This document shows, in pieces, positions 9,066 to 34,290 of a DNA stretch of 64,000 nucleotides. The notes under the pieces are model-generated. The model was given only the letters and a program-made list of their open reading frames with translations. It was not told the origin of the DNA and did not search any database. This DNA comes from Limnovirga soli (GTDB lineage Bacteria; Bacteroidota; Bacteroidia; Chitinophagales; Chitinophagaceae). Within the stretch, counting starts at the first letter, position 1, and every line of letters starts with the position of its first letter. The position numbers and the translations under genes were made by a program. Location: contig NZ_WHPF01000004.1 of the NCBI RefSeq assembly GCF_013106755.1, positions 186,001-250,000 on the forward strand. Reading direction: 5' to 3'.

Positions 9066-9107
9066 GTAATATTTTGGACTAAGCATTGGAATATCTATTA
9101 AGCTTTT

Positions 9108-9125
9108 CTTGCGTCGCACTCTTGT
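9108..9125 (-). repeat. Intergenic repeat family, copy B
   Basis: CTTGCGTCGCACTCTTGT on the plus strand, 43 bp after the preceding stop codon. The next copy seen is at 34.4 kb. Confidence 0.75.
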
Positions 9126-9225
9126 TCTTTAGAATAAAATGTAACAGCTCACGATTGATTGTAAAGTTTAAATGTTAAAATGTTCGTTGCCCTTAATCAT
9201 TTTTAAGGATACTAAAAAATATTGT

Positions 9226-15652: not shown

Positions 15653-15669
15653 TTTTTAGATACAAGTTT

Positions 15670-18600
15670 ATGAAATCAAGAGTTGTATTTTTTATTGGAT
15701 TTCTCAGTATTTTTTTAGCTACTGGGTTAGAAATTGATGCACAAACCGGACCCCAATTGGTCAAAGTTGCCCCACCTTCACCAAATGTACAGGCATTGCA
15801 AAAGTATGGTGAAATACCGGTGAGCGCATATACAGGTATTCCCAGTATTTCAGTACCTATTTACACGATAAAATTTAGAGACATTACCGTTCCGGTTTCC
15901 TTAAGTTATCATGCTTCAGGAATTAAAGTAGGTGAAGAAGCTAGTCGTGTTGGTTTAGGCTGGAGTCTAAATGCCGGTGGCGTAGTATCAAGAACGATAA
16001 TGGGTGGAGATGATTTTGAAACTGGGTATTTTTCAAGCAATATTCCTGACTTTGATGAACTTTATTTCCCAAAACAATTTGTTCAGAAAAGCGACCCCTG
16101 CAACATTATCGTAATGGATCATTACAATGAAACAACTCTTTCAGTAACAAATGAAATGGATGGACTTCCTTACACCGATTTTGAACCAGACCAATACTAT
16201 TTCAACTTTGCCAATCAAAGTGGTAAATTTATTTTGAAAAAGGATAAGAGTACCGCCGTATTGGAAAAGAAACAGAATCTCAAAATCTCATTGTTAACTA
16301 GTCCTAATGATTACTGGAGAATAACAGATGTCGATGGATTCATTTATGACTTTGAGGCCATAGAAAGTTATCACCCTAATAACGACCCTCTCGATCATAA
16401 ATCAGCCTGGTATTTGACTAAGATTACATCACCCGCAGGAAATATAGTTACATTTTCATATACGATTGTCGCATCGAATTATATTCAATCTTTTGGGTCT
16501 TACACCGAAACAAAAGATGTTTATCAAACACCAGGTTTTGAGCTAGCACGCTACCAGTTTTCTGAGCAAAAAGGCATGGCTCCTGGAAGAAATTATACTC
16601 AGGTATTGTTATCATCAATTGATTTTACAACAGGAGTAATGGAATTTACTTATTCAACACGTGATGATGTTGAAAATGATAAGAAAGTGGATAAAATAGC
16701 GATTTATTCCAAAGATGCGGGAGGGAATAAAAGCTCCAATCCGATTAAATTTTTTGATTTAGGATATACCTATTTTGATGGAGGTTATGATAATGATTAT
16801 GGCCCTAATCCACCGCAACCTGCAACGGGATTCTACGCAAAACGTTTAAAGTTAACAGGGATTACGGAAAAGGGCTATGACCAAAATGGACTGGTGGTTT
16901 CGAATAACCCTTATTCATTTATATATAATGAGTCGGGTAACCTGCCGGCTAAGACATCTTTTGCGCGGGATCACTGGGGATATTTTAATGGGAAGCATGG
17001 TAACATCAGTCTGATTCCTGATTACATTTTGACTTCAAATACCGAGGCTTACGACCAAATCTCCTATGTTTTAGGAACACAAGGGCAAAACAGGGATGCA
17101 GATAATAGTCCTGATTTAGATTTTATGAAAGTCTTTAGTCTTAAGACTATTCAATATCCCACAGGAGGTTCAACAGAATTTGTTTATGAGGCCAATGATT
17201 TTGATGAACAGGCTTCACAGATAAATGACCAATCATATTTTGCAAAACAGTATTCTGTAGTTGTTCACAATGATGCGAATGATATGACATATGATAATCT
17301 TTATAACGGTGGTGCATGGAGAACAAGTAACGTAAAGGACTTAACTGATTTATATCTTTTTTCCAGTAATCAACTCGCTTTCGTACAATTAACTGTACCT
17401 GTTAGATTTGGCAGCAACCTAACTTGTCCTTTTGTAATTCAAAATGGCGCCATCAAATTTTCAATTCTTGACGAAGCAAACAATATTATTTATGAAAAAG
17501 ATTTAAGTGGGACCTACAAAAGTGATGACTCTTCATTAATATGTCAAGGATCGGCTGTTACGTTCAAAACCAATTTATATCTTACTCCAGGCTTATATAC
17601 CATACAGGTTTCAGTAAATAATAGCTTATTTCCTACAGGCATTACGTTACAGGATATGCGTTTTAACTTTAATTGGTATAGCCAGGTAAGCTCAAACCCT
17701 CTTTCATTACAGGGTATTACATTTTCCAATGCTGGCGGATTAAGGGTAAAAAGAATTATTGATCATGATGGATTGAATCCTACTAACGATAAAATCAAGC
17801 GGTTCATTTATCATTATTGGGAGGATAGGAATGGCACTGGCCTTAAAGAGTATAGCTATGGTAAAAGAATGTCTCGTCCCGAGTATCGTTACTTTATCCC
17901 TTCCGAAGAATTTCATCATTCAAGAGACCCAGGTAACGGGAATGACATAGTTCAACCATTCTGGACTTATCACTTAATGAGAAACTCAGACAGTAATATA
18001 CCACTCAATGGATCAGCGGCTGGAGCGGTAGTTGGGTACGATACAGTGGTTGTACTGGATGGAGAAAACGGGGAATTTGGCAAAACCGTGTATGCTTATC
18101 ATAACAATCCGGATATCGTAGGAAATTATAGCTTTGATGGATTACCTATTATGCCTCCGTCAGGTTCGAATACAGCCGACCCCCTGAATGGATCACTACT
18201 TGATGAAACCGTGTATAAAGCAAATACTCAAAATAATCCTATTACTTATTCGCCGGTACAAACGACTTCCAATACCTACAATATTGGTGTCAATCCAAGC
18301 TATATATGCGGTCTGATGTGGGAAAGAATTACATATGTCAATGCCTTTCCTTCTTCGATGAATACAAATGATTATGGAGTTTGTTCAGGGTATATGAAAG
18401 CATATAGAACATTGAATCCAAATTTTAGCTATTTATCAAGCACAACAAAAAAGATATATGATCCAAATGATAAAGACATATTTTTAAGTTCAACTACAAA
18501 TTATTTTTATGAAGGCAGTCAACACTATTTCCCAACAAGAACTGTTACGCAGAACAGTCTAGGTGAAAACATAACAACACATACTACTTATCCATTGGAT

Positions 18601-19854: not shown

Positions 19855-20373
19855 ATGAAAAATGTTCTCTTAAGCATCGCGGCATTCTTTTTTACCACAA
19901 GTATTTATACATACACTATACCGGATACAAATGGTGAACCTATTGCATTTGCAAATTTTCAGGGAAAGAAAATATTGATTGTTAATACTGCAGGGGGAAG
20001 TGAATTTGTAGACCAATATGCTAGTCTTGAACAGTTGTATCAGATTCATAAAGATAGCCTTGTCATTATAGTAGTACCTAGTAATAGTTTTGGGAATGAA
20101 CAAGGGACAGACAGTACCATTTTTCAATATGTTACGGAAACATATGGTGCTACATATGTTATTTCTGGTAAGGCAGAAGTAAAAGGAGTAAATCAAGTAC
20201 CACTTTATCATTGGCTTACCAACAAATCAGATAATGGGCAAGTAGGCTATGCCATTCACGGAGACTGGCAAAAATTCCTGATTGATAAGAATGGGAAAAT
20301 TATAGGTGTTTTTGCACCATCAGTTGATCCTATGAGTGATGAATTGCAGGATGCGATCAAGAATGTTGATTAA
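19855..20373 (+). CDS. Glutathione-peroxidase-like protein lacking catalytic residues
   Basis: 172 aa with a signal-like start (residues 1-19). The thioredoxin-like fold of the GPx family is visible in GKKILIVNTAGGSEF, LEQLYQIHKDSLVIIVVPSN and QKFLIDKNGKIIGVF. In active GPx proteins the first motif reads NVASxCG; here the peroxidatic Cys/Sec position is Ser. By manual alignment the conserved Gln of FGxQEP is Glu (FGNEQGTD), and the Trp and Asn of the WNFxKF motif become Gly and Asp (HGDWQKF). All four tetrad positions therefore differ. A peroxidase activity is unlikely; a structural or binding role in the Rhs operon is possible. It sits between two giant YD/Rhs genes, 15 bp after one and 51 bp before the other. 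Confidence 0.7.
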   Translation: MKNVLLSIAAFFFTTSIYTYTIPDTNGEPIAFANFQGKKILIVNTAGGSEFVDQYASLEQLYQIHKDSLVIIVVPSNSFGNEQGTDSTIFQYVTETYGATYVISGKAEVKGVNQVPLYHWLTNKSDNGQVGYAIHGDWQKFLIDKNGKIIGVFAPSVDPMSDELQDAIKNVD

Positions 20374-20424
20374 TTATAAAAGATTACAGTAATCTTCACT
20401 TTTTACAAATCAAAAGTATAGACC

Positions 20425-23400
20425 ATGCGATATACGCTTTTAACTATTTGTCTTGTAATTTCCATAATATGTTTTGGGCAGGGAAATACACCCCAAAATA
20501 GCGTAACAGGCCCGGGCAATCCCGGGATTGCCCCTCGGACATTACCAACTCTCCCAGCGACATACAATAAGAACAATGTAAATGCAATTGTTATTTATGA
20601 ACCCCAATTGCCTTATTCTTTGGAAAGCGAAGTTGTCTCTATTAACAGAAGTGTTGATGAGGTACGTAGAGCTTCTCAATATTTTGACGGATTGGGTTAT
20701 CAGTTACAAACGGTTGGCTGGCAAATGAGTAGCGATAAGCGTGATATCGTTTCTATAAATGAGTATGATCTATCAGGAAGGGAAACGTATAAATATTTAC
20801 CTTTTGTTTCAACATTGCTTCCGAATGTAACGCTTAATACTACTGGAACTGGTAACTTCAAGACAGCACCGTATGACGAGCAAAAGAAGTTTAGTCAAAA
20901 AGAGTATGGCGGAGAAAATATTTATTATGGTCATGATATATATGAAACGTCTCCACTTGACCGGGTACTAAAAAGCTTTGCTCCAGGAAATAGCTGGGCT
21001 GGTTCAGAAGGTACAGCAACAGAGCGTACTTTTGTGAAACAATCTCTTGTCAATTCTAGCACTATCGATTTGGTGTATAAATGGTCAATCTTAATTAACC
21101 CCTCTGACCCAACTTCACTTAAGGCATCAACAAGTAAACTATTGTATAGCACTGGAGATTTATTTAAAAGTGTCACTATTGATGAAAGAGGGGTACAAAC
21201 CATAGAGTACACAGATAAAGGAGGAAAAGTAATTTTAAAGAAGGTACAGGCAGACAACACGCCAACATCTTTTTATGATGGTTGGCTTTGTACTTACTAT
21301 GTGTATGATGATTTTGACAGGCTGAGATTCGTGATTACACCAAAACTGGTTGCAAAAATGAACAGTCAGGATAATTGGAATATATCAAACAGTAATGCAG
21401 CAGAATTATGTTTTCATTATGAGTATGACGCAAAAGGAAGAATGACAGCTAAGAAAGTGCCTGGATCTGCTTTTGTGTATATGATTTATGATGATCGGGA
21501 TCGGTTAGTATATACACAGGATGGAAATATGCGTGCAAAAAATCAATGGATGGTGACATTCTATAATGCATTAAACATGCCTATTATGACAGGCATCCTG
21601 TCCCATTCTACAACTATTATCACCTCAGCAACATTGCAGGCAGCAATTGATCAACTTGATTTTACAATTAATACGACATTAACAGCAGATAATGAAAATA
21701 TCATTGTAAATGCTAATCCATTGCCTGGTATTACTGGTCAGCAATTTATTGCTTTAACAAAGACATACTACAAGACATATGATAACTTAAGCAGTAATAG
21801 CTATAATGCTGGCTTTAACACCCAGTTTGACCAGGCTATTATCAACCAGGCACCAGAGACAAATCCAGGTACTTCAAATGCAATTCTAACTGGGGTGACA
21901 ACTGGTACAAAGATTCGGGTGATAAAAAATGCCGATAATCTTGCTTCAACAGAAAATAACAGCTGGATTTCCACCGCAATTTTTTACGATAATAAGGGAA
22001 GGGTAATTCAAACTAACGCTACTAATTTTAAGGGAGGCACAGACATTACAGTAAATCTTTATGATTTTGCAGGGAAACTTTTAAGTACATATACCGGCCA
22101 TACTTACCCGACTGTAAATACTTTAGGTACCGGCGTTGGCACAGATATGCAGTTTGACCATGCTGGGAGAGTATTAAAAGTGAAAAAGCGTATTTATAAT
22201 CAGGCATCCCCCGCAACGGGAATTAATCCGGCGGTTGTAACCAAAATAGCCGATAACACTTATACACCCATGGGTCTGCTGGAAACAAAGGAATTGGGTC
22301 AGGAAAAAGATGCATCAAGCGGAAACTACACTTCAACACTTCCAATAGAAACGCTAGATTATTCATATAATATCCGGGGCTGGTTAAAGTCAATTAATAA
22401 AGAGTACTGCAATATCAATGGTACTGCTACTGATCGCTGGTTTGGTATGGAGCTTAGTTATGACTGGGGTTTTCAGAAAAAAGAATATGGAGGCAATATT
22501 AGTGGTACGACCTGGAGAAGTAAAGGGGATGGAGAGCGACGGGCATATGGATTTAGCTATGACAATGTAAACAGGTTGCTGTATGCAGATTTTAATCAAT
22601 CTAACGGCACAGCTTGGGATAAAACTGCGCAAGTAGATTTTTCTGTAAAAATGGGAGATGGGGTGAATTATAAACTTGCATACGATGAAAACGGGAATAT
22701 CTTGCGGATGCAGCAGTGGGGGGTAAAGATCGGAAGCGCCTCTTCGAATTCTGTACAAATTGATGATCTCGCTTATTCCTATTATAATAATTCTAATAAA
22801 CTCCAGGCAGTAACAGATCAAATCACTGCAAATAATAAGCTAGGTGATTTTTATGATAAGAATACTGATGCAACAGACTACGGCTACGATATCAATGGAA
22901 ATTTAATAACGGACAAGAATAAATCATTGGACGGCGCAACAGGGATTGATGTAGCTACGGGTGGCGCAATTCAATATAGTTTTCAAAATCTTCCGTGGAT
23001 GATTACCGTTCAGAACGATGCAGGAATTACAAATGATAACGGCTCATCCACTAAAGGAACTATAAAATATATATATGACGCTACTGGCAATAAATTAGAG
23101 AAAATAGTTGCAGAGAATGCTAGTTCAGCCAATAGCCATATCGTAAAAACAGTAACTACTTCATATATGGGGCTGTGTGTGTATGAAGAAACATCTTCCT
23201 ATTATTATTCAACACCGAATGATCCAATACCTCAAACAAACAATGGCCTTCAATTCATTAATCAGGAAGAAGGGAGGATACGAAGGGTTGATGATGGGGC
23301 AGGTGGCTATAAGTATAATTTTGATTACTTTGTTAAGGATCACTTGGGAAATATCAGAATGGTTCTTACTGATGAACTAAAAGAAGATATTTATCCTGCT

Positions 23401-25035
23401 GCAACACTTGAAGATAATGCACAAGCATTAGCAAAAGAAAAGGAGTATTATTTTATTACTAATGAGTCGGTGAATATTGTGGATGAAAACGATATTCCTG
23501 GATTTGTAGCGAATACTCCATCGTATAAGAACAATAACCAGGATGCTGGTAGTGGAGGTTATGTGAATTCAAATCCATATGCCAGCACCGGGGGGAATAG
23601 TAAAAAATTATACAAGCTTAACGGAGCAATAGGCTTAAAAACAGGCTTGGGTATTACCTTGAAAGTGATGAGTGGTGACCAGGTAAAAATAATGGGTAAA
23701 TCATATTATACCTACACCAATCAACCTACGCCAAATAATAATAATCTTATCAGCACCGCCTTAACTGATTTTCTAGCGGTGCTTACAGGAAGTAATGCTG
23801 TAGTTGGTAATACCCATGGAGTAGTAACATCATCTACCGTTTTGAACAGTACCCCAGATGCTTCAACACAAATAAATAGTTTTCTTAATCAATCTTCCAG
23901 AGTAACCGGAACACTGCCGCTTAAGGGTGGTATTAGCTGGATTTTATTTGATGAACAATTTAAGCCGGTGCTCACAAATAGCGGATTTTATCCACTTGGA
24001 ACAAATGAACAGTTAGTTAATTATAATAATGCACCTATAGATATCACTAAGAATGGATATCTTTATGTCTATTGCAGTAATGAAAGCAATATCGATGTGT
24101 TCTTTGATAATTTTCAAGTGGTCCAAATGAGAGGACCATTGGTGGAGGAAACACATTATTATCCGTTCGGGTTGATACAAAGTGGTATATCATCTAAGAG
24201 CGCAGGCAAGCTGGATAATAAAATACTCTATAACGGCAAAGAGAAGCAAAGCAAAGAATTTACAGACGGTAGCGGGTTAGAATGGTACGACTACGGCGCA
24301 AGAATGCAAGACCCACAGATAGGAAGATGGATGACGATAGACCCTAAAGCAGAAAAGTATCCTAATTGGAGCCCTTATGTTTATGCGTTTGATAATCCTG
24401 TAAGGTTTATAGATAAAGATGGCAGAGAAGGCGAAGATCCTGTAAAAGATATTATTGATGAAGGGAAAAAGTCGCAGACATTTACAAACTTGCTTATTAC
24501 CGCAGGAGTTACTAACAACAACTACAGTCAAATAATTAGCATTGGCCAACAAACAACAATCAATGATGATAAAGAGTATGGCGGCAATGGGGAAATAACA
24601 GTAAGCCCTGGCAAAACTTTAGGTAATAGCGCCGCAAACCTTTCATTTGAATTAACAAACAGGTCTAATCTTTCAGATTTGCAAAAGAACAATGAAGCAG
24701 TTAGGAGTGGTACAAAAACTGCTGATGAATATGCTGCAAACAAGATAGGCATAGAATCAAAGGGATTTGCAAATAAAATTGCGGTAGCCGTTGAGTTAGG
24801 GGTTACGTTTGGCGGAGACAAAACCAAACAAATTATTCAAGATTATAAAGATGGTAAAGTTAGTTTAGCGGACATAGCAAAGCAATTTGCATCGAATATG
24901 AAAACAGTTAAAATAGCCAATACAGACCAGACTGCTTACGATGCTTATAAAGCACAGGGTGAAGCCAAAAGAGCAGAACAGGTTCAAAAAGAAGCGGAAG
25001 AAAAAAAGAAGCAGTCAGGTAAGCCGGGTCAATAA
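20425..25035 (+). CDS. Rhs polymorphic toxin with variable C-terminal tip
   Basis: 1536 aa. Signal peptide [19 protein letters not shown], then a DUF6443-type N-terminal region ([20 protein letters not shown]), many YD repeats ([39 protein letters not shown]) and the Rhs-associated core [15 protein letters not shown]. The Bacteroidota core end starts at HYYPFG (His1244) and runs through [20 protein letters not shown] to FIDKDGREG (about 1330-1336). The last 200 residues (about 1337-1536) are the variable tip, a presumed toxin of unrecognised type containing [10 protein letters not shown] and ending in a Lys/Glu/Gln-rich helix. By analogy with Rhs proteins the YD region would form a shell around the tip. 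A putative immunity gene follows 38 bp later. The core end is repeated at three orphan tips downstream. Confidence 0.85.
24155..24170 (+). repeat. Rhs tip junction, site 0
   Basis: ATTATTATCCGTTCGG encoding YYPFG inside the intact Rhs gene. Identical 16-mers begin the three orphan tips. Confidence 0.9.
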
Positions 25036-25073
25036 GAAGTATTTGTTATTAAAATAAATGTAAAAATATTGCA

Positions 25074-25478
25074 ATGAGGTACTTAAAAAATATAGTGGTT
25101 TTTTTGGGGTTATTATTGATTACAAATATTGGGTACAGTCAATTGAATGGTATTTATAAATATATTAATAATGATTCTATCCAGTATAAAGTTTTATTAA
25201 CGTATAGAGAAGATAGCCTTGGAGATTTTTTACCCTCAATTTATACAGTATCGGTAAAAATTAAAGACAGTTCAATGCTTAACACTATCAAATCATTAAG
25301 TAATAGTGACTGGCTGAAATTGCTTACCAATGAAAAATCGGATTGGGCAGCCAATTTGCTATTATACAATTTGTATAATAAAGATGCCACGAGGTTTACT
25401 GTGATTAGGACAAGGGATAATTGGATAAGCCGAAGGAAGAATGAAGACGTCGAGTATTGGCGAAAGACTTTTAAATAG
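25074..25478 (+). CDS. Putative immunity protein of the intact Rhs toxin
   Basis: 134 aa with a signal peptide MRYLKNIVVFLGLLLITNIGYSQ, so the product should be outside the cytoplasm. The mature part is about 110 residues with alternating strands and helices (YKVLLTYREDSLGDFL, DWLKLLTNEKSDWAANLL) and ends WRKTFK. No family is recognised. It lies 38 bp after the Rhs gene on the same strand and is followed by a terminator, the standard position of an immunity gene. A periplasmic location would fit neutralising a toxin acting in the periplasm or during entry. The assignment rests on position only. Confidence 0.5.
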   Translation: MRYLKNIVVFLGLLLITNIGYSQLNGIYKYINNDSIQYKVLLTYREDSLGDFLPSIYTVSVKIKDSSMLNTIKSLSNSDWLKLLTNEKSDWAANLLLYNLYNKDATRFTVIRTRDNWISRRKNEDVEYWRKTFK

Positions 25479-25515
25479 CCATCATTCATCGGGTAGTTCA
25501 TGCTTTAAATATTAC

Positions 25516-25546
25516 AGCCGTTTGGTAAAAGCCAAGCGGCTTTTTT
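25516..25546 (+). terminator. Rho-independent terminator of the Rhs operon
   Basis: AGCCGTTTGG-TAAAAG-CCAAGCGGCT stem (one G-T pair) followed by TTTTT. Confidence 0.85.
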
Positions 25547-25634
25547 ACTGCATTAGGAATAATATAACAATAAAGAAGGTTGTTATAGGTTTCCCCACGT
25601 CTAAGTACACCTTGAATTAAATTTTCTGAGTCAT

Positions 25635-25642
25635 TAGTTTTG
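25635..25642 (+). promoter_or_regulatory. Possible Bacteroidota -7 element (TAnnTTTG)
   Basis: TAGTTTTG 25 bp before the IS66 orf start fits the TAnnTTTG element. No convincing -33 TTTG partner is seen. Confidence 0.3.
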
Positions 25643-25667
25643 TTTTTTAAACTTCAATTGGCTTCAG

Positions 25668-25990
25668 ATGGATCAGCTACAAAACAAACGCAACCGCCGC
25701 ACTTCGTTGGAAATAAAAAAACTCTTTGAAGACTTTACCCACAGCGGCATAAGTGCAAAAGAATTTTGTAAAGCACAAGGTGTTTCAAGAGGTGTTTTTT
25801 ATAAATGGAGGTCACGATATGGCGCAAAACCTGCAGTAAAGCGGGGAGCATTCATCAAGCTGAACGTACCAACTTTACCCGAATAGCAACCGTCACTTTT
25901 TGCAGAAGTAAAAGGAAAAAAGGTCTCTCTTCGGCTTTGTCGGCAAGGAGTACGCCAAACTAATGCAGCAAAAAGCATTTTCTTATAAAA
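25668..25990 (+). mobile_element. IS66-family accessory gene (tnpA type), interrupted
   Basis: ATG 25668 opens a 72-codon frame with a helix-turn-helix: RRTSLEIKKLFEDFTHSG and KEFCKAQGVSRGVFYKWRS, the start of IS66 OrfA/TnpA proteins. It stops at TAG 25884-25886, but the same frame continues directly with QPSLFAEVKGKKVSLFGFVG and KEYAKLMQQK, which corresponds to the usual LFAEVKG-type C-terminus of this family. So a nonsense mutation splits the gene. No tnpB or tnpC transposase gene follows, and IS66 terminal inverted repeats were not found. The element is therefore a fragment. Its 3' end is duplicated at 27822. Confidence 0.7.
25927..25984 (+). repeat. 58-bp direct repeat, left copy (IS66 tnpA 3' end)
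   Basis: From CTCTTCGGCTTTGTCGGCAA to GCATTTTCTT, matching 27822-27879 with one mismatch (G/T at the GGAG/TGAG position). The pair brackets orphan tip 1 in direct orientation. Confidence 0.9.
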
Positions 25991-26450
25991 ACCTTTTAAG
26001 GAATGCTTTTAACTGCATTTTCCTACGGATGCTTTGCAGTTTGTCATACTCCTTGCTACTCATACAGCCTACATTCGGACAACTCTTGTGACCTTCACCC
26101 AAATTCGTTCATTTCTTCTAGGTTGTGCTCCGGCCTTTCCCTAAGGTCATCCGAATGGTTAATCGGATCTAAACTGTTCCTAACCTACAAGTTAGGTATT
26201 GCTGTTTCAAAGCAGCAAATACCTAACAAAATGAATCCTATGAAAAACCAATGCTTTAAGCCCAAAATGGTATTTTGCATGAATATTATTTCTTTTCATA
26301 TTGCAAATTTAAAAGCAGTGGACTGGGTAAGCATTATACAATAAATGTAATTTGAGATAAAATAAGTGATTATACATCGATAAATTTAAGGCGAATATTT
26401 ATATATTCATGAAGGCAATTTTATTGGGTTTTTAAAAAGCTCTTTGATAA
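25991..26450. other. No gene; contains an inverted repeat
   Basis: The 113-codon open frame at 26003-26344 has Cys/Ser/His-rich composition unlike a bacterial protein and is judged non-coding. The stretch holds the 37-nt inverted repeat at 26191-26227 and leads into orphan tip 1. Confidence 0.5.
26191..26227. repeat. 37-nt inverted repeat
   Basis: Arms GTTAGGTATTGCTG and (on the other strand) GTTAGGTATTTGCTG, differing by one extra T, around a short AT-rich loop. No T-tract follows, so it is not an obvious terminator. It lies 250 bp before orphan tip 1. Confidence 0.7.
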
Positions 26451-26475
26451 ATTTCCAGCACTTTCAAGGCCATAA

Positions 26476-26491
26476 ATTATTATCCGTTCGG
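26476..26491 (+). repeat. Rhs tip junction, site 1
   Basis: ATTATTATCCGTTCGG at the start of orphan tip 1. The reading frame is closed 9 codons upstream (TAA 26448-26450), so the homology to Rhs begins here. Confidence 0.9.
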
Positions 26492-26498
26492 ACTTACC

Positions 26499-27278
26499 AT
26501 GAGTGGCATATCAAGCAAAGCTGCAAACTCTGTGGGCAATAAGTATGAGTATAATGGCAAAGAAAAGCAATCAAAAGAATTTAGTGATGGGAGTGGTCTT
26601 GATTGGTATGATTATGGTGCAAGAATGTATGATGTGCAGATAGGTAGATGGGAAGTTGTTGACCCACTAGCGGGGAAATATCCGAGCCTATCACCGTACT
26701 GTTATGTTGCAAACAATCCCATAAAATATATAGATCCAGACGGAAGAGAAATAGTAGTTCCTAATGTTGCAGATAGGGCACCAATTTTAAAGATGATAAA
26801 TGCAAGAGCAGTTGGTACATTTGCGTTTGATAAAAATGGTGTGTTGTATCAAGCTAGTGCTAAAGGAGACGCTACTAAATTTTCTAAATACTATGCCGAC
26901 AAATTGGTTGAAGGAATAAACAGTGATAAAAAAATTACAATTGCAATTGCTGAGAAATTTACCTATGGTGGTAAAGAATATGACACTGATAAAGATTGGG
27001 GAGGTGCAGCAACAGCAGGTGGTGAAGGTACAGACCAATCTACTTGGATTTCGGGCAATGAAAATACAAATTTGCAAGACACAGAAGGCAAGCAGTTAAG
27101 GGATAATCCAGCAGATATATTGGCACACGAATTAGTAGGTCACGCCATTCCTAAAGCAGTAAAGTCCGATACAGGAAATGCAGTCGAAAATGAAAATAAA
27201 GTACGTAAAGAATATAAAGAGAAAGGCCAAAAAGGAGAAAGTCCATTAAGAGCTGCTGAACCAAAACATAAAGAATAA
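26499..27278 (+). CDS. Orphan Rhs tip 1: core end plus zincin-like toxin domain
   Basis: 259 aa from ATG 26499; homology actually starts at codons 26475-26489 (NYYPF) without a start. Residues 1-83 are the Rhs core end ([47 protein letters not shown]). Residues 84-259 are the tip, with HELVGH (His210-His215), an HExxH zinc-protease motif, followed by AVENENKVRKE and a late SPLR. This His-Glu pattern with a downstream EN..R resembles M91/NleD-like zincins used as polymorphic toxins. There is no signal peptide and no Rhs shell, so alone it should be silent or inactive for delivery; it may serve as a donor tip. A lipoprotein gene follows 2 bp later. Confidence 0.75.
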   Translation: MSGISSKAANSVGNKYEYNGKEKQSKEFSDGSGLDWYDYGARMYDVQIGRWEVVDPLAGKYPSLSPYCYVANNPIKYIDPDGREIVVPNVADRAPILKMINARAVGTFAFDKNGVLYQASAKGDATKFSKYYADKLVEGINSDKKITIAIAEKFTYGGKEYDTDKDWGGAATAGGEGTDQSTWISGNENTNLQDTEGKQLRDNPADILAHELVGHAIPKAVKSDTGNAVENENKVRKEYKEKGQKGESPLRAAEPKHKE

Positions 27279-27280
27279 TT

Positions 27281-27655
27281 ATGAAAGTGATATTATTAGA
27301 TATTGTCCTACTACTTTCATTAAGTTGTAATTCCCAAGCGATGAAAGAACATATTTTTATTATTGGAATTTGGTCATTGATAAATATTGATGGCTTGAGT
27401 TGTAATGTTTGTCCTGAAATCAAATTTACCAAAGACGGTAAAGGTAAAATTACAAAGCCTTCAAGGGAGGAAATTGATTTTACTTATACTTTATCATTAG
27501 AAAATAAGAAGATTGTATTTTCAATTGATGCTAATCAGCAATATTTTAATGAAAAAGAATATTCTTATAAAGTGTACACGGAAGATAATTTAGAAATCCT
27601 TGAATTAAGTCTAAAAGACAAACCGAGTAAGTATATTTTAACTAGAAAAAAATAA
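27281..27655 (+). CDS. Putative immunity lipoprotein for orphan tip 1
   Basis: 124 aa. The N-terminus (MKVILLDIVLLLSLSCNSQA) has a lipobox-like LSLSC, suggesting a lipoprotein. The mature part (GIWSLINIDGLSCNVCPEI, FTKDGKGKI, then strands up to YILTRKK) resembles lipocalin-like Bacteroidota proteins. It begins 2 bp after the tip 1 stop codon and is followed at once by a terminator, so the two form a toxin-immunity pair. A surface or periplasmic location would fit binding an incoming metalloprotease. Immunity function is inferred from position. Confidence 0.55.
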   Translation: MKVILLDIVLLLSLSCNSQAMKEHIFIIGIWSLINIDGLSCNVCPEIKFTKDGKGKITKPSREEIDFTYTLSLENKKIVFSIDANQQYFNEKEYSYKVYTEDNLEILELSLKDKPSKYILTRKK

Positions 27656-27661
27656 CTTTTT

Positions 27662-27690
27662 AAGCCTTGCCATTCGGCAGGGCTTTTTTA
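27662..27690 (+). terminator. Terminator of cassette 1
   Basis: AAGCCTTGC-CATTCG-GCAGGGCTT stem with one G-T pair, then TTTTT. Confidence 0.85.
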
Positions 27691-27816
27691 ATCCTGCATA
27701 AGGGTAGCCAAATTATCTTTCATTTTCTTTTTGGCAATAGCAATCATTTTAAGCAGACAGCTTTTTTCGTCTTTGTCTAAAGTATCAATCAATTTTACTT
27801 TATCAAGGATAGAAAA
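27688..27816 (-). pseudogene. C-terminal remnant of an XRE-type regulator
   Basis: On the minus strand the frame gives FSILDKVKLIDTLDKDEKSC, LLKMIAIAKKKMKDN and ends ATLMQD. This resembles the C-terminal end of Bacteroidota helix-turn-helix (XRE) regulators, but the DNA-binding part is missing: upstream the frame runs into the duplicated IS66 fragment. The open frame continues to 27873 only by passing through that fragment. Family assignment is weak. Confidence 0.35.
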
Positions 27817-27821
27817 GGTTA

Positions 27822-27879
27822 CTCTTCGGCTTTGTCGGCAATGAGTACGCCAAACTAATGCAGCAAAAAGCATTTTCTT
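27822..27879 (+). repeat. 58-bp direct repeat, right copy (IS66 tnpA 3' end)
   Basis: Second copy of 25927-25984, same orientation. The tnpA frame continues beyond it into an unrelated Lys/Thr-rich end (KMATKKTKPNK) stopping at TAA 27953-27955. Confidence 0.9.
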
Positions 27880-27957
27880 TTACACTCAACAAAGCAGATG
27901 CTGGTAAAAACACTAAAGTTAAAATGGCTACTAAAAAAACAAAACCTAATAAATAAC

Positions 27958-27979
27958 AAAAGCCCCGTGAGGGGCTTTG
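27958..27979 (-). terminator. Terminator of cassette 2
   Basis: AAAGCCCC-GTGA-GGGGCTTT perfect stem, 4 bp beyond the last gene of the minus-strand cassette; T-rich on the minus-strand side. Confidence 0.8.
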
Positions 27980-27982
27980 TGG

Positions 27983-28186
27983 TTATTTACAAAAGAAAGG
28001 AAAGTAATAACAAAAGGACTTATCTGTTGTGAAAAATCCTATCGCTAAGAGTAATAATAAGCCCGCTGCTCCTAATAATCTAATTCTTGTGATATAATCA
28101 CTTTCTTTGTTATTCTTAAACTTAAATGAGAATTTTACTAGAATAACAACTATTAGTAAAATAAATATAGCAATTATCTTCGTCAT
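27983..28186 (-). CDS. Small two-helix membrane protein, putative immunity for orphan tip 2
   Basis: 67 aa: MTKIIAIFILLIVVILVKF, a short charged loop (NNKESDYITRIR), a second helix LLGAAGLLLLLAIGFF, and a short tail. Its ATG overlaps the stop of the orphan tip 2 gene by 4 bp (28183-28186), indicating translational coupling. Small integral-membrane immunity proteins usually accompany toxins that act on the inner membrane. No family is recognised. Immunity is inferred from the overlap and order. Confidence 0.5.
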   Translation of the reverse strand: MTKIIAIFILLIVVILVKFSFKFKNNKESDYITRIRLLGAAGLLLLLAIGFFTTDKSFCYYFPFFCK

Positions 28187-29010
28187 TTTTCCTTCTTACT
28201 TTCTTTTACTGAATAATTAATCAATAAGTTAGTTTTACCTACTTGTGCTTTTAAAATTTTCTTTGCAGATTCATCCAAATTAGTTTTTTTAATAACCATC
28301 TCAAATGGAACAGGAGCTAATTCAAATACAGCATCAACAGCCAATTCGGTTTTAATTTCATTAGTTAATCCTTCTCTCTTAATTCTTGCTGAATACTCTA
28401 AAATACTACCACCCTTAGATATACCTTCTCCAATTCCGGCAATACTTAGTGTTGCACCCTCTGTAAAAGGGGCTGCTAAATAACCAACAGCAGCCACCCC
28501 ATCTCCTATTGCAGAAACCACACTACCTGTTTTCTCTAATCCTTTATTAAGTTTTATTTGTGTTTGTCGATACTCGTTCATTTTCCTTTCTATAGACCCT
28601 GCTTTAGTAACAACCATTTTTCCTGTTTCGCCATTATAGAAAGAAACATCTCCATTTCTATGTATAAAAGTATGGTTCTTCTCACCACCGTCATTTTGAA
28701 CTCCTTCACGCCTTTTCCAAGAACCGTCTTTCTGCTCATCGAAAATTCCATCCAAAGCTCCATCAGGGTCATTTCTTAAAATTGGATTGTTTTGGCAAAA
28801 ATTATACGGTGATAGCCAAACTCTGAGGTGTGCTTTCTTGTCAACACTCCACCACCTGCCTATTTGTGGGTCATAATTACGTGCAGAAAAATCATAGAGT
28901 TCTAAACCACTGTTATCCGCAAATTCATTTGATTGTAATTCCTTACCTCCAAATTTATATTTGTTGGCAAGTGTTCCTGCAGCTTTAGAACTTATCCCTG
29001 CCATTGTCAA
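28183..29010 (-). CDS. Orphan Rhs tip 2
   Basis: 275 aa from TTG 29010; the homology begins upstream at the junction (NYYPFG, 29012-29028). Residues 1-85 are the Rhs core end ([43 protein letters not shown]). The tip has a hydrophilic start (GIFDEQKDGSWKRREGVQND) and a hydrophobic Gly/Ala-rich stretch near residues 165-200 (SVVSAIGDGVAAVGYLAAPF) that could insert into a membrane, then a basic helical end. The toxin type is not recognised. It lies on the strand opposite to the intact Rhs gene and has no signal peptide or shell. The overlapping 67-aa membrane gene is its likely immunity partner. Confidence 0.65.
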   Translation of the reverse strand: MTMAGISSKAAGTLANKYKFGGKELQSNEFADNSGLELYDFSARNYDPQIGRWWSVDKKAHLRVWLSPYNFCQNNPILRNDPDGALDGIFDEQKDGSWKRREGVQNDGGEKNHTFIHRNGDVSFYNGETGKMVVTKAGSIERKMNEYRQTQIKLNKGLEKTGSVVSAIGDGVAAVGYLAAPFTEGATLSIAGIGEGISKGGSILEYSARIKREGLTNEIKTELAVDAVFELAPVPFEMVIKKTNLDESAKKILKAQVGKTNLLINYSVKESKKEK

Positions 29011-29011
29011 C

Positions 29012-29027
29012 CCGAACGGATAATAAT
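29012..29027 (-). repeat. Rhs tip junction, site 2
   Basis: Reverse complement of ATTATTATCCGTTCGG. Upstream DNA (above 29031) has no Rhs homology. Confidence 0.9.
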
Positions 29028-29030
29028 TTA

Positions 29031-29375
29031 TTACTAATATTATTGGCCGAATTTAATCAAAGAACTAATTTGTATTCTTCATGTGATCGCTCACATAAAT
29101 ATACAAATAACGCTCTGGGTATTTTAAGGACTTATTATATGTATTTTCTTTTTGATTTAGATTTTTTAAAAAAAAGAATATTTCAGTCACCAGTAAGAGT
29201 ATTACATAGCATCGCCCGTTTTTGTCACTCACATGAACGATTGGATTATGAATGAGCCCTTTTCGTAGCGAACCGACGAGTTCCTGCCACCCACAAAGAA
29301 ACTATGGGAACAAACACTACGGATAAAGAAGCCGTTGATTTGGTCGCACTCACGGCGGCAAAAGAGAACAATATC
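29031..29375. other. Spacer between cassettes 2 and 3
   Basis: No convincing gene. A plus-strand stretch at about 29305-29404 reads TTDKEAVDLVALTAAKENN and then a stop, composition like real protein, so it may be the end of a lost gene. It overlaps the 3' end of the next minus-strand gene. Confidence 0.35.
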
Positions 29376-30095
29376 TTAATTACCTGTTACAATATTATAA
29401 AGTAAATGAGGTTCAATTGAAGCATTAGCGTTAATAGGCGTCATTAACAATAAATAAACGCTTCTATTACGTTTTAAAAATAAACAGTCTATTGGCACTA
29501 TACTGGTTTCCCCCAATGGTCTTTCTTGTCCTATTACAAGGATATCTACGGGGTCTTCCTTTGAATATCGTATCGAAAAATTATCAGCTAATAAATGATA
29601 GTTTATAATCGTATCATTTATTTCGACTTTTTGTAGCGAATCCCCAGCTAAGGTTAAATAAAGAGCAGAAGCAGGTTTTATAGCTCCTGCTTTATACCGA
29701 AATCTATAGATTATATCCCTACCTATTGTTCCATAACTATATCCTGTTGATAAATCAACGCTTTTCATTTCTACATGTAAAATATTTTCTAATGAAACAT
29801 CATTCTGTAATATCATTTTATACATTATCAAATGATATTTATTATCAAAATCTAAAATTGCTATCGGAGCTCTTACTTTACTTTGATAAACTTCAATTAC
29901 TTTTAATTTCCCTTGATATTTTTTTGAAATTAAATTGGAATCTTCCAAAGTGAGTGAATAGGTGGATGGAAGATCTTCGGTAAGAGCTTTTTCATTTTGC
30001 AAAAAGCCATTATATATTTTTACAACGGAAAAGATAAAAATACCTAAGATAGATAGCGCTATGATTCGTGTTCTATTTTTTACTTTTTTTTGCAT
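29376..30095 (-). CDS. Membrane-anchored protein, putative immunity for orphan tip 3
   Basis: 239 aa. One N-terminal transmembrane helix (IIALSILGIFIFSVVKIY, residues about 11-28), then a beta-rich extracytoplasmic domain (LKVIEVYQSKVRAPIAILDF, RDIIYRFRYKAGAIKP, CLFLKRNRSVYLLLMTP). No catalytic motif is seen and no family is recognised. It starts 75 bp after the orphan tip 3 stop on the same strand, the position of an immunity gene. At about 240 residues it is longer than most such partners. Confidence 0.45.
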   Translation of the reverse strand: MQKKVKNRTRIIALSILGIFIFSVVKIYNGFLQNEKALTEDLPSTYSLTLEDSNLISKKYQGKLKVIEVYQSKVRAPIAILDFDNKYHLIMYKMILQNDVSLENILHVEMKSVDLSTGYSYGTIGRDIIYRFRYKAGAIKPASALYLTLAGDSLQKVEINDTIINYHLLADNFSIRYSKEDPVDILVIGQERPLGETSIVPIDCLFLKRNRSVYLLLMTPINANASIEPHLLYNIVTGN

Positions 30096-30170
30096 CTATA
30101 TTAATTGAAATATTCGTTTAATTATCAAATGTTTTGAACAACTAATAATTTTTACATAGCCTATTCTCTG

Positions 30171-31058
30171 CTATTTTGGTGCTAATTTTGAAAGCAAAGG
30201 AACTATAGATCCTTCTGTATTAGTAAGAATTGCCACAGCCACAACAAGTGCACCTAAACCGGGGCGTATGCTCAAATCTCCACCACCACTATTGCCATTT
30301 TTATCAATATGACTACCACCACCGGAGATTTGGCCTAAACCAACCCCCAGCCCAACTCCTATATGCCCTTCGTATCCAAAAGCGCCAAGACCAAATGAAA
30401 TTGAACAATCGGTATTAACACCCACTGTTACAACACCACCAACCGAAATAGAACCACCATCAATATTACCATTACTCAATGAAATGTCATTAATTATAGA
30501 ACCATCTGTTCCATTCGTCACTCCTTTAAATGATGATACTGTAACCTTATCTCCAAGACCAGAATTAAATACATCTGCTTCTTTAACGATCTTATTTGTA
30601 ATTGTATAGCCATTTAAAGTAGTAGCTTTTGTACTTGTATTAGATGTTCCAATTGATTTTGATTCTATCTCATTAGTAGCTGTATTTGTTTGACCCTGAT
30701 TTGCCTGGTTATTGGTCGATGTAGCAAAATTATAAGGCATAATGTGGGCTAATGGATTAATTGGTTTTGGCGGTGGTGGAAGAGAATCTCCTAACTTGTC
30801 ATTATACAAAATTGGATTATTGCCCATTGAAGCATACAAGCTTTGCGAGTAATCAGGCTTTGAGTCTATCTGACACCATCTGCCTAATTGTGGGTCAAGG
30901 CTTCTAAAGTATGTTGTGTATAATTCTAATCCGCTTCCATCGCTAAATTCTTTATACTGCAACTCTGAACCGTCATTAAATTTTATTTTATTTTCTACAC
31001 TGCCTGCAGCTTTTGAAGATATTCCACTCATTGTCAATCCGAACGGATAATAATGCAA
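30171..31058 (-). CDS. Orphan Rhs tip 3, Gly-rich
   Basis: 295 aa from TTG 31058 (MHYYPFG). Residues 1-85 are a divergent Rhs core end: [35 protein letters not shown], then [13 protein letters not shown] in place of the usual DPDGRE. A Pro-rich linker ([15 protein letters not shown]), a Thr/Asn/Gln-rich stretch and a Gly-rich beta region ([20 protein letters not shown]) follow. The protein ends with a hydrophobic segment ([10 protein letters not shown]). The composition suggests a membrane-active or structural tip. The recombinase gene ends 92 bp upstream on the same strand. Confidence 0.6.
31039..31054 (-). repeat. Rhs tip junction, site 3
   Basis: Reverse complement of ATTATTATCCGTTCGG at the start of orphan tip 3, about 97 bp from the recombinase stop codon. 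Confidence 0.9.
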
Positions 31059-31150
31059 ATGGATTCAATGCCTTTACTGTAAAACGTTTCAAAGAACAGA
31101 TTACCCTTGTAATATTGGCAAATTATGGAAAATTGAGCATGTTTTATACA

Positions 31151-32218
31151 CTATTTTTTAAGCTGTATTTCAGTAAGTAATTTTTGCTGCGCCCTTCTTA
31201 CCTCTACATTCAGATAATCTTGTACGAGGCATACATAACGGTAAAATTCTTTGCTGCCACCAGCATGACCAGATATCCTGCGAACCATCATTTCAGGTAC
31301 TCCCAGCATTAATAAGGTTGTAATTGCGGTTCTGCGCATGGTATGTGCGCTCATGTGGTCACAAAAGCGGAAGGACTGCCCATTCTTCCTTTTAATTTCT
31401 ATAGGCTTACCTTCCCGAAACCTTATTTTTGGCAAAGGATGTATCCAGCCTGCAAGTTGAATTATTTGTTTTATCTGTAGGTCGAAATTGGTAGCTGATA
31501 AGCAGGGTAAAAGATTGCTGCCATATTTGGATTTATAGGTTTTAAGAATTGATAAGGCATAATCGGGTAGAGGTATCTGTACTTCTGTGGTTGTTTTTTG
31601 AGTAATTATCGAGAGCAGTGCACCCTCTTGACTATGATGGATATTTTTTAGTTTGAGCCTCATTAAATCTGAATATCGAAGGCCAACTGTACATCCAAAT
31701 ACAAAAATATCTTTTGTGCGCTTTAGATGCCTGGATAATGATTTATCAAATTGCTGATCAAGCACAAGGAAGCGAAGTTGTTGTGGCGTAAGTACAATTG
31801 GTGCTATATTGCTTATAGGTATGCGAAAACGTTTATGAAAATTGCCTACAGGAAGTGACTTTTCTTTTGCGAGGTAATTGAAAAAGGTTTTGATTATTTT
31901 AAATACCGCGCCAGCATAAGCATCGTAATATTTTTTATCGCGATAGAGAAAATCTCTGAACTGTCTGTAAAAGGCATCCCAATATCTATTTTCTTTTTGC
32001 TGATCCCGCAAGCTGGCCCTATTGATAAAGGTAATTAAGAGTGGTTTGCCTGTGGATAGTTCAAATTCAGTAATCAGGCGACTTGCCATAGTATACTGTT
32101 CCACCGTTTCTTTTGTAATTCTTTTACCGCTTGGTTGAGTTCTGCGCCCAGTTTTGGAAGCGCTGATAAATTTTTTAAACTGTGGCAAAAGCAGTACCTG
32201 CTTAGCATTTTTCTTCAT
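31151..32218 (-). CDS. Tyrosine recombinase / integrase
   Basis: 355 aa. An N-terminal SAM-like core-binding domain (about 30-125) is followed by the catalytic domain. The catalytic residues are visible: Arg181 (VGLRYSDLMRLK), Lys208 (ITQKTT), His292 and Arg295 (AHTMRRTAIT), His318 (SGHAGG) and the nucleophile, most likely Tyr328 (EFYRYV). The protein looks intact. It carries out site-specific strand exchange through a 3'-phosphotyrosyl intermediate. Bacteroidota recombinases of this length occur in mobile elements and invertible-DNA loci. No excisionase or other phage or ICE gene is nearby. Its gene lies 92 bp upstream of orphan tip 3 in the same orientation, at the edge of the tip array. 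Whether it acts on tips is an inference. Confidence 0.9.
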   Translation of the reverse strand: MKKNAKQVLLLPQFKKFISASKTGRRTQPSGKRITKETVEQYTMASRLITEFELSTGKPLLITFINRASLRDQQKENRYWDAFYRQFRDFLYRDKKYYDAYAGAVFKIIKTFFNYLAKEKSLPVGNFHKRFRIPISNIAPIVLTPQQLRFLVLDQQFDKSLSRHLKRTKDIFVFGCTVGLRYSDLMRLKLKNIHHSQEGALLSIITQKTTTEVQIPLPDYALSILKTYKSKYGSNLLPCLSATNFDLQIKQIIQLAGWIHPLPKIRFREGKPIEIKRKNGQSFRFCDHMSAHTMRRTAITTLLMLGVPEMMVRRISGHAGGSKEFYRYVCLVQDYLNVEVRRAQQKLLTEIQLKK

Positions 32219-32673
32219 GTTTTAAGTATGAAGATAGGAGGCTATTACTACCTGTATTTTGCAAGTTAATCTGAGATTTAAATAATATTTAGTTTAGTGA
32301 ATAAATATGATTGTACCGCATGAATAAAATTAGAATTCTATTCCTTTTAATTATTGGTGCAAAAGTAGAATGTGTGACACAATATAGGTGTTGCTTTATA
32401 ATACAAAAGTTGATAATTTATTAGTTAATCTAGTCTGAAAATAACAATTCATTTTAAGAAAACCCATTTGCGCTTTACACTATTAGTAAAATTTAGTACT
32501 TAAAACTTTAGTGTTTTAAAAAGATTATTGTTATTTGTTAGGAGAAATATTTCAATGGAATTGCTTCAGTATTTCTAGGAATCGCTGTAAATATTGCTAT
32601 TATTACACCTTAGCGTTTGCCAATCACTCACTTTAATGTTAAAAATTATTTGACCATGTTGTTATTGCATTTT
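32219..32673. other. No recognisable gene
   Basis: AT-rich intergenic DNA between the recombinase and the ATPase gene. It contains the presumed recombinase promoter, but no clear motif, repeat or RNA gene was seen. Confidence 0.5.
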
Positions 32674-33858
32674 TTAAAATAAGCTGACTGGGTTTAGTTT
32701 AAGGAAATCCTGCCATGGCAGCCCTGCATTTCCAATAAGTAAAACTTTATCAGGATTAAATTTTTGTTTAAAAGCAGTTATTCCTGAGGTGTAACCCGCG
32801 GCACCACTTTTTACCTCAAGGCCAATAACTTTTCCCTTTCTTTCAATAACAAAATCTACTTCCTCATTCCGCTCTCTCCAGTAATGTAAGTTGAATTTTT
32901 CGGTAAGAGAATGATTGATGAGGTGTGCACCAATGGCTGATTCAACCAAGCGGCCCCATTCATCAGGTTTGGCAAGTGTATTTTTAAACAGATCATTTCT
33001 CTGAGCGCTTATTAAAGCGGTATTATGCACCTGAAATTTAGGACTGGTTGATCGTTGACGGATCACATCCGGTGCAAATTTCTCAATGCCTGCCAGTAAA
33101 CCGGCCGTATTCAGTAATGCTAAATAATGAGACAGGGTAGTAGTATTTCCGGCATCTAGTAGTTGGCCGAGTAGTTTTGTATAGGAAAGGATCTGCCCTG
33201 AATAAAGACAGCCTAATTCAAAAAGGCGCTTCATCAATGCAGGCTTATCTACACGGGTTAGCATAAGAATATCTTTTGAAATACTTGTCTCGATCAGCGA
33301 TTCTGTTATGTAGGTTTTCCACCTATCTTCATCCTCTATTAAACTTGCAGATCCGGGGTAGCCACCAAACCATACATATTGATTTACATCCCATCCAAAA
33401 GCCTGTTGCATTTCCTCATAAGACCAATGACTCATATAAGTGCTTTCAAACCTGCCGGCCAGTGATTCGGTAAGTCCTTGCTGCAATAATAATCTGGATG
33501 ACCCCAGCAGGATTACTTTTAGGTTTAAATTGTTTCGGGTGTCAGTATCCCACAACAGCTTAACAGTTTCACTCCAGTTATTAATTTTTTGTATTTCATC
33601 AATTACCAATAAAAATTCTTTCGTTTCAAGTTGTGCCAGTTTTGTACGGGCAGCTTCCCATTGTTGTTCCAGCCAGGTTGCATTGCTGGCAGCTACAGCG
33701 TCCGCAGAAACAAAAAGATAGTCGATTTTTACTTGGGTAACCAGCTGGGTCACTAAGGTAGTTTTACCCACCTGACGAGGTCCCATAATTACCTGCGCGA
33801 ACCTTCTTGGCTCTTTCATCCTCTTTATAAGTGTCTGTAAATGAGGTCGTTCAAACAT
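32674..33858 (-). CDS. AAA+ ATPase with DUF4143 domain
   Basis: 394 aa. Walker A GPRQVGKTT (26-34) and Walker B LLVIDEI (Asp87, Glu88) belong to the AAA_14 fold, followed by an LGSSRLLL sensor segment. The C-terminal half carries the DUF4143 module with NEEVDFVIERKGKVIGLEVKSG, a PD-(D/E)xK-like pattern. Members of this family are widespread in Bacteria and Archaea and often lie in accessory DNA; their cellular role is not settled. The gene is alone on the minus strand at the edge of the accessory region. It appears intact. Confidence 0.85.
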   Translation of the reverse strand: MFERPHLQTLIKRMKEPRRFAQVIMGPRQVGKTTLVTQLVTQVKIDYLFVSADAVAASNATWLEQQWEAARTKLAQLETKEFLLVIDEIQKINNWSETVKLLWDTDTRNNLNLKVILLGSSRLLLQQGLTESLAGRFESTYMSHWSYEEMQQAFGWDVNQYVWFGGYPGSASLIEDEDRWKTYITESLIETSISKDILMLTRVDKPALMKRLFELGCLYSGQILSYTKLLGQLLDAGNTTTLSHYLALLNTAGLLAGIEKFAPDVIRQRSTSPKFQVHNTALISAQRNDLFKNTLAKPDEWGRLVESAIGAHLINHSLTEKFNLHYWRERNEEVDFVIERKGKVIGLEVKSGAAGYTSGITAFKQKFNPDKVLLIGNAGLPWQDFLKLNPVSLF

Positions 33859-34290
33859 AAAATACTATTTACTCAATATAATGAGTAAAATTACTAAAAA
33901 TTATGAGTAAACCAAAGAGTTACGAAGAATTCTTCGAATAAGTGATATTTTACCGTCGAAAAAAATTTTCCATCATGCTTTAAAGAAAAGAGCATTGTTA
34001 CAAACAATCTTTACCTAAGTAAAATTTGGAGGTGAAACAAATTTGGCCGAAATATAACAGGTTAGTAATACAGGAAGAAAGGTTTATTTAACACTAATTA
34101 CAAATCTTAGCTAAATTACCTAGCTGCGGTATAGATGGTTATTGATCTTAGCATCGCACTATACCGCTGCTTCAAGTATTTTAACTGGTATAACAGTTCT
34201 TAACGCATAAATTCTTTTAAATTTCATTAATAAATGGTTTGAAAACTGTACTATGGGGGTCACAGTGTAAACCTCAAAAAACAACGAATT

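Follow-up and report, generated by a model that had tools for sequence, protein, structure and literature searches.

The R64 shufflon brings together the Rci recombinase, sfx sites made of a conserved core and a variable arm, and the alternative tips of pilV (PMC3414803, PMC11852207), and with artificially symmetric sfx sites Rci gives excisions besides inversion (PMC11852207). The locus described here resembles it in having a tyrosine recombinase beside inverted segments, a constant N-terminal part, alternative C-terminal ends and short sites. It differs in its target, which is of the Rhs polymorphic toxin type with small genes in the immunity position and not a pilus adhesin, in a site that encodes the Rhs motif YYPFG, in a recombinase from a separate Bacteroidota subfamily, and in a leader element, GTTCTTTGA, at a fixed distance.

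In Salmonella rhs, displaced orphan tips and their immunity genes can fuse to the full-length gene, and homologous recombination after duplication has been proposed (PMC3967940). The present locus shares with enterobacterial rhs a full-length gene, displaced orphan tips and small genes, but adds a dedicated recombinase and short sites, and has inverted orphans where the enterobacterial orphans lie downstream. Those parts of Zhang et al. (2012) that deal with tip exchange describe polymorphic toxin loci in which tips are replaced from cassettes of toxin and immunity gene, and XerC/D-type recombinases that adjoin polyimmunity loci (PMC3482391); unlike the loci described in those parts, the one here has a putative site-specific system at the tip junction. 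Inversion between inverted repeats, in several cases with a linked tyrosine recombinase, is also known from phase-variable hsdS loci and from Bacteroides Tsr0667 and Mpi (PMC4948785, PMC11892184, PMC11852207); the hsdS and Bacteroides systems switch promoters, SusC/SusD proteins and restriction specificity, whereas here Rhs tips are concerned. Like an integron, this locus places a recombinase gene beside a constant platform and, after it, cassettes that all begin in one fixed way; unlike an integron, it showed no attC-like element, holds its cassettes in both orientations and offers two inverted partners for joining, namely the main gene and the leader. No paper linking Rhs tips to a site-specific recombinase was found in the open-access literature (subscription papers and preprints lay mostly outside the scope of this search), and a recombinase-driven Rhs tip switch is thus only provisionally new.

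Results

An Rhs tip bank closed by an intact tyrosine recombinase

The window, meaning the whole 64-kb (64,000-nucleotide) stretch of DNA analysed here, holds a bank in which a main Rhs gene with tip 1 and an orphan tip 2 lie on the plus strand, followed by two inverted tips, 3 and 4, and by the recombinase gene that closes the bank. The main, full-length Rhs/YD-repeat gene (20425..25035, plus strand) encodes 1536 aa and has behind it a small ORF of 134 aa (25074..25478, plus strand). The ORF of orphan tip 2 (26499..27278, plus strand), in the main gene's orientation, is followed by one of 124 aa (27281..27655, plus strand); that of orphan tip 3 lies inverted relative to the main gene (28183..29010, minus strand); and orphan tip 4, nearest the recombinase (30171..31058, minus strand, 295 aa from a TTG start), is followed by an ORF of 239 aa (29376..30095, minus strand). 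The ORFs behind tips 1, 2 and 4 are placed in the immunity-gene position by their location only. The TIGR03696 Rhs core is present in the main gene and in all three orphan tips (tip 4, E=2.8e-8), and the four core ends, each of about 270 bp, begin at 24154 (plus), 26475 (plus), 29028 (minus) and 31055 (minus). With its core ends, variable C-terminal ends and small genes, the bank has the layout of an Rhs polymorphic toxin. No tip in the window matched a Pfam toxin domain at E<=0.1; the tips are presumably toxins and the small genes presumably immunity genes.

The recombinase gene (31151..32218, minus strand) is uninterrupted and encodes 355 aa that match Phage_integrase (PF00589) with E=1.8e-10 and 41.3 bits, against a Pfam cut-off of 27.1. 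Arg181, Lys208, His292, Arg295, His318 and Tyr328 are invariant over 20 aligned relatives; because Tyr326 varies among these relatives and Tyr328 does not, Tyr328 is the likely nucleophile. With the R-K-H-R-H-Y set and the domain match, the protein is a tyrosine recombinase. Its predicted structure is confident (mean pLDDT 90) and on structure comparison resembles Xer, lambda integrase and Cre-type enzymes, while a sequence search returned no relatives in the PDB. An Rci-specific model was not among the profile matches, and the likeness to the shufflon is one of layout and sites. The gene is present in a single copy in its own genome.

An earlier note on this DNA had placed an intact recombinase 92 bp from an orphan tip, had named the same six catalytic residues, and had it transcribed toward that tip (its tip 3, our tip 4) with no phage or ICE genes around. 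The open frame, the invariance of the residues and the shared minus strand of recombinase and tip bear this out, and so does the neighbourhood: no phage or ICE genes were seen around the recombinase in the window, the only trace of a mobile element being a short, transposase-like piece of HTH sequence that separates tips 1 and 2, and the neighbours checked were ordinary (an AAA_14/DUF4143 ATPase, an amylase and PhyH).

The HTH fragment is a 72-aa ORF (about 25668-25887) with a weak HTH_Tnp_1 match, probably an insertion-sequence remnant. A 70-nt repeat occurs at 25918-25987 and 27813-27882 of the window and has four copies in the genome, the others at G000:C34:147337 and G000:C1:69569; Rhs cores are found close to these further copies too. 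The repeat was considered as an attC-like end of cassettes and dropped, being absent behind tips 3 and 4. A repeat search of the window found no element common to all cassette ends, and Rfam gave no match over positions 20000-34000.

A recombinase subfamily tied to Rhs cores

A profile search of 396 Chitinophagaceae genomes gave subfamily members mostly at 290-673 bits, with fragments lower, and other tyrosine recombinases at <=120 bits; set against 19 control recombinases, the subfamily forms one clade with support of 100/100. Its proteins measure about 350-370 aa, and some are frameshifted or fragmentary. Assignment to the arm-binding Bacteroidota integrases of ICE or phage type, which run to about 400-480 aa and carry an arm-binding domain at the N-terminus, was rejected because the subfamily is shorter and forms a separate clade and no ICE or phage genes were seen in the window.

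Across 25 Chitinophagaceae genomes, a TIGR03696 core was found within 1.5 kb of 18/26 subfamily members versus 2/134 other PF00589 recombinases (Fisher p about 1e-15, uncorrected for kinship). Of the eight members that missed this distance, that of G026 has a core detectable with a custom HMM. In G145 and G274 the contig breaks off within a tip head, in G415 at the site described below and in G362 inside the recombinase; in G193 it starts in a partial head; and in G317 and G168 two leaders meet at the recombinase. The flanks of 18 other recombinases, found by sequence similarity, held no Rhs core. In a class-wide sample of 395 genomes, members from other families had a core within 1.5 kb in 15 of 20 cases, the remaining five being at contig ends, degenerate or without a core. 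The adjacency of recombinase and Rhs tips in related genomes is thus far beyond chance.

Phage records reached <=28% identity among the matches listed, and in viral contigs a single weak relative turned up, which falls outside the subfamily. NZ_CP109997.1, a Flavobacterium sequence with plasmid annotation, carries a member of 41.6% identity, and an Rhs core lies just upstream of it. This 26.9-kb record (L243), with its subfamily recombinase, Rhs cores and chromosome-type genes, may be a misassembled piece of chromosome.

The closest relative, 82% identical, lies in a Chitinophagaceae MAG (JANXWM010000464.1), where it again precedes an orphan Rhs tip, though one whose end differs, and sits beside other genes. 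Its frame has one TAA near the start, with a TTG start behind the TAA. In the locus of this sister MAG (L025), the recombinase-tip unit is flanked by inverted copies resembling the 70-nt repeat (about 5530-5600 and 8265-8330) and by a further inverted repeat, CTTGCGTCGCACTCTTGTA / TACAAGAGTGCGACGCAAG, at about 5335-5365 and 8350-8375.

A putative crossover site at the YYPFG codons

Each of the four tip heads carries one copy of the 16-mer ATTATTATCCGTTCGG, and the window holds no others; about 5e-5 copies would be expected by chance. The copies are at 24155..24170 (s1, plus strand, within the main gene at the YYPFG codons), 26476..26491 (s2, plus strand, head of tip 2), 29012..29027 (s3, minus strand, head of tip 3) and 31039..31054 (s4, minus strand, head of tip 4), so that two plus-strand copies face two minus-strand copies, as the short inverted sites of a shufflon do. 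The 16-mer is likely the crossover site, with CCGTTCGG as its core. Its codons spell YYPFG, with which the Rhs core family starts, and for this reason all tips would join in the same codon phase and an exchange would be in frame; because the site sits at this conserved Rhs motif, even very different tips stay in frame. The positions and orientations of the sites predict an invertible region from s1 to s4 (24155..31054).

In alignments of tip heads, similarity between tips begins abruptly at the YYPFG codons, and several banks share nothing upstream of them. When sites from one bank are paired, the codons for the second Tyr and for Pro always agree (120/120 pairs), the Phe codon agrees in 95% and the Gly codon in 88%, while most codons further downstream are identical in 33-78% of within-bank pairs; one rich genome dominates these pairs, and the search pattern fixed part of the site. 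Since the third position of the Pro codon was left free by that pattern, it is the cleanest sign: the codon varies between banks (CCG, CCC, CCA or CCT) and is identical within each, which would fit an overlap region that must match between recombining partners. The arms on either side of the site are imperfect inverted repeats and in some members near perfect, as in L136 (GCATCATCATCC-TTTCG-GGATGATGATGC). In G327 and G358, which have another core type, the site pattern was not found at the core start, although a site is readable in the recombinase-side leaders.

Orientation of tips and main genes in related banks

The recombinase lies at the end of its bank, and it points to the nearest tip in 24/34 recombinase-proximal heads and away from it in 10/34. 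In all 11 banks that have both on one contig (the window, G358, G385, G288, G240, G075, G347, G327, two in G357, and G416), the main gene and the recombinase-proximal tip are inverted relative to one another, and most banks hold cassettes in both orientations.

Banks without the recombinase also exist. The earlier note had named tip banks equally common without the recombinase as a result that would refute its idea; such banks do occur, but the five with a long upstream main frame are laid out differently, with tips in direct orientation and similarity that mostly runs far upstream, as would be expected for displaced tips made by homology. The recombinase-less pairs L142 and L146 are inverted and have leader-type heads, and some leader-type tips have no recombinase nearby.

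Among about 58 tips almost no C-terminal ends are shared, and repertoires are nearly unrelated between genomes; a comparison of tip swaps between genomes was dropped, the tips being too diverse. One genome, G357 (L080, L085, L152), has two banks with about 20 tips in total, each with its own recombinase. Upstream of an orphan tip in L085 (3545, minus strand) lies a remnant of a recombinase C-terminus, 29 residues long and 86% identical, and judging by this remnant tips may have been copied along with the recombinase end. In L061 (about 14700-16200; G127:C1:57706-59170) two further tyrosine recombinases, of other kinds, sit inside a tip bank, perhaps as an inserted element.

DNA joints and contig ends that fall on the site

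In G168 (L079, about 9100-9220) and G317 (L075, about 10300-10420) the recombinase has no tip, and two leaders are joined head to head at the site. The joint, around CTATCCC-TTT-GGGATAG, is palindromic and like an empty site; such joints recall the excision products of symmetric sfx sites. In G010 (L026) two tips meet head to head at the site, and at a second joint of that locus the recombinase leader runs into Rhs coding sequence (2385-2411 and about 4010-4050). The joints in these three genomes fall exactly at the site, and recombination based on homology would not readily make them.

In G274, contig C3 ends at the recombinase leader and site, C7 (488 kb) breaks off at YYPFGM within an Rhs frame that stays open over the 2601 aa up to that point, and C13 (4890 bp) has a site at both ends, its end heads mutually inverted, so that the segment fits either way round. 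All four ends share exactly 27 bp, compared with 100 bp at eight other joins in the assembly. Because an assembler with a word length near 100 would have assembled a single orientation straight through, the assembly probably holds both orientations; this rests on the inferred behaviour of the assembler, and a mixture of strains would also fit. G415, assembled in four contigs, has a 3.09-Mb contig that starts inside an Rhs frame (2767 aa open) and a 1.23-Mb contig that ends at the recombinase leader, both stopping at the same 25 bp. The contig structure of G274 and G415 fits a mixed orientation. No inversion was seen in the window organism, whose own contig is unbroken through the bank. Two contigs of G145 with a common 141-bp leader before different tips were left unused, since either two orientations or two leader copies could produce them, and so was a 141-bp overlap of two G001 contigs.

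A leader element at a fixed distance from the site

In the gap between the recombinase and tip 4, the element GTTCTTTGA lies at 31089..31097 (minus strand) and begins 51 bp ahead of the site's CC. It stands exactly before 12/34 recombinase-proximal heads and with <=1 mismatch before 16/34, compared with 0.03 and 0.6 in shuffled sequence. The distance from its start to the CC of the site is 50-53 bp in 28/53 distinct leader-to-site stretches from many genera, and a fixed distance of this kind speaks for a tie to the recombination site. A coding version, VFFDN, occurs in main genes at 64 bp from the CC. That GTTCTTTGA is a mere relic of VFFDN was rejected for the other core type, because the motif is missing from its main genes; in the window it may yet hold for tips 2 and 3. 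A hairpin between GTTCTTTGA and the site was also rejected, folding being no better than in shuffles (mean z -0.5, 17 leaders). An identical 9-mer is present in the same genome's 16S rRNA leader (L139), within AAGTTCTTTGAAAG, where it recalls a boxA antitermination element.

Discussion

We read this locus, with a probability of roughly 0.8, as a tip switch of the shufflon kind, in which a new recombinase subfamily exchanges the ends of an Rhs polymorphic toxin. The recombinase would cut and rejoin DNA at the short site encoding YYPFG, of which one copy lies inside the full-length main gene and one heads each orphan tip. Exchange between two inverted sites would flip the intervening DNA: a new tip, together with the small gene that follows it, would be joined in frame to the constant N-terminal region, and the old tip would be parked in the bank; through s2 and s3, further inversions could bring any of the four tips to the main gene. 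We infer that this recombinase performs the exchange and that the exchange occurs in the window organism; the GTTCTTTGA leader may have a role in it.

The shufflon-type tip switch was one of several possibilities raised by the earlier note, and it is the one that the comparative evidence favours: the window itself combines a linked recombinase, a constant N-terminal part and several alternative C-terminal segments, the subfamily is tied to Rhs tips within and beyond the Chitinophagaceae, inverted banks are the rule, the site is fixed and bank-specific, and one assembly apparently holds both orientations. The same note had proposed looking for this recombinase subfamily beside Rhs tips in other genomes, where it is indeed found, and had named close relatives confined to unrelated mobile elements as the result that would speak against it; the low identity of the phage matches listed and the plasmid-record member beside Rhs cores show no such confinement. 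On the other side, the head regions are similar in coding sequence, so homologous recombination could contribute; the unbroken contig of the window organism, the leader-type tips that lack a recombinase nearby, the frameshifted or fragmentary recombinases and the core starts of G327 and G358 without the site pattern also count against this reading.

A wider version of this reading can be offered only tentatively. It would make of these loci one class-wide Bacteroidia system, in which a single subfamily both shuffles and acquires tips at one codon-embedded site, and in which the GTTCTTTGA leader, at its fixed distance and shared with the rRNA leader, would be a recombination platform that lets a parked tip and its immunity gene be transcribed.

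Somewhat less probable still is that the recombinase mainly captures new tips, as an integron does, at the leader site beside its own gene, with inversion secondary; the likelihood given to this overlaps with that of the tip switch, as capture may be a second activity of the same enzyme. It would account for the constant leader platform on the recombinase side, kept across genera, for the leader-leader sites of G168 and G317, which look cassette-free, for tip repertoires that are almost unrelated between genomes, and for the recombinase 3' end remnant carried by a tip in L085. As the main role, however, the integron-like capture suggested by the earlier note gives way to the absence of any attC-like element seen at the cassette ends, to cassettes lying in both orientations, and to platforms and main genes that face each other in every bank where this can be read, as inversion expects.

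We consider it improbable that the recombinase serves as integrase to a small mobile module, made of recombinase, tip and immunity gene and moving between genomes. The 82% identical relative, beside other genes and a different tip, and the repeats around its unit in L025 would suit such a module, but the recombinase is single-copy in its own genome, banks that include a main gene turn up in many families, and subfamily members are almost absent from the phage, plasmid and viral collections.

Least probable, and by our estimate very unlikely, is the other suggestion of the earlier note, that ordinary homologous recombination over the roughly 250 bp of shared core end swaps the tips and the recombinase is an unrelated neighbour: fusion of main gene and orphan over 522 bp at 95% identity has been proposed for Salmonella rhs (PMC3967940), and the same genomes do contain banks that lack the recombinase and have their tips in direct tandem, with homology extending far upstream, but the linkage of the recombinase is far too specific, similarity starts sharply at the site with several banks lacking upstream homology, leader-leader and head-head joints fall exactly at the site, and the G274 contigs break at 27 shared bp only.

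Change of tips in polymorphic toxins is already known and has so far been explained by chance homologous recombination. If the tip switch proposed here is true, a dedicated enzyme with sites of its own would make the choice of tip a programmed, reversible switch within one clone, one able to split it into differently armed subpopulations and, possibly, to produce kin without immunity to one another. The subfamily would then be a new set of putative inversion enzymes, each with its site written in the neighbouring genes.
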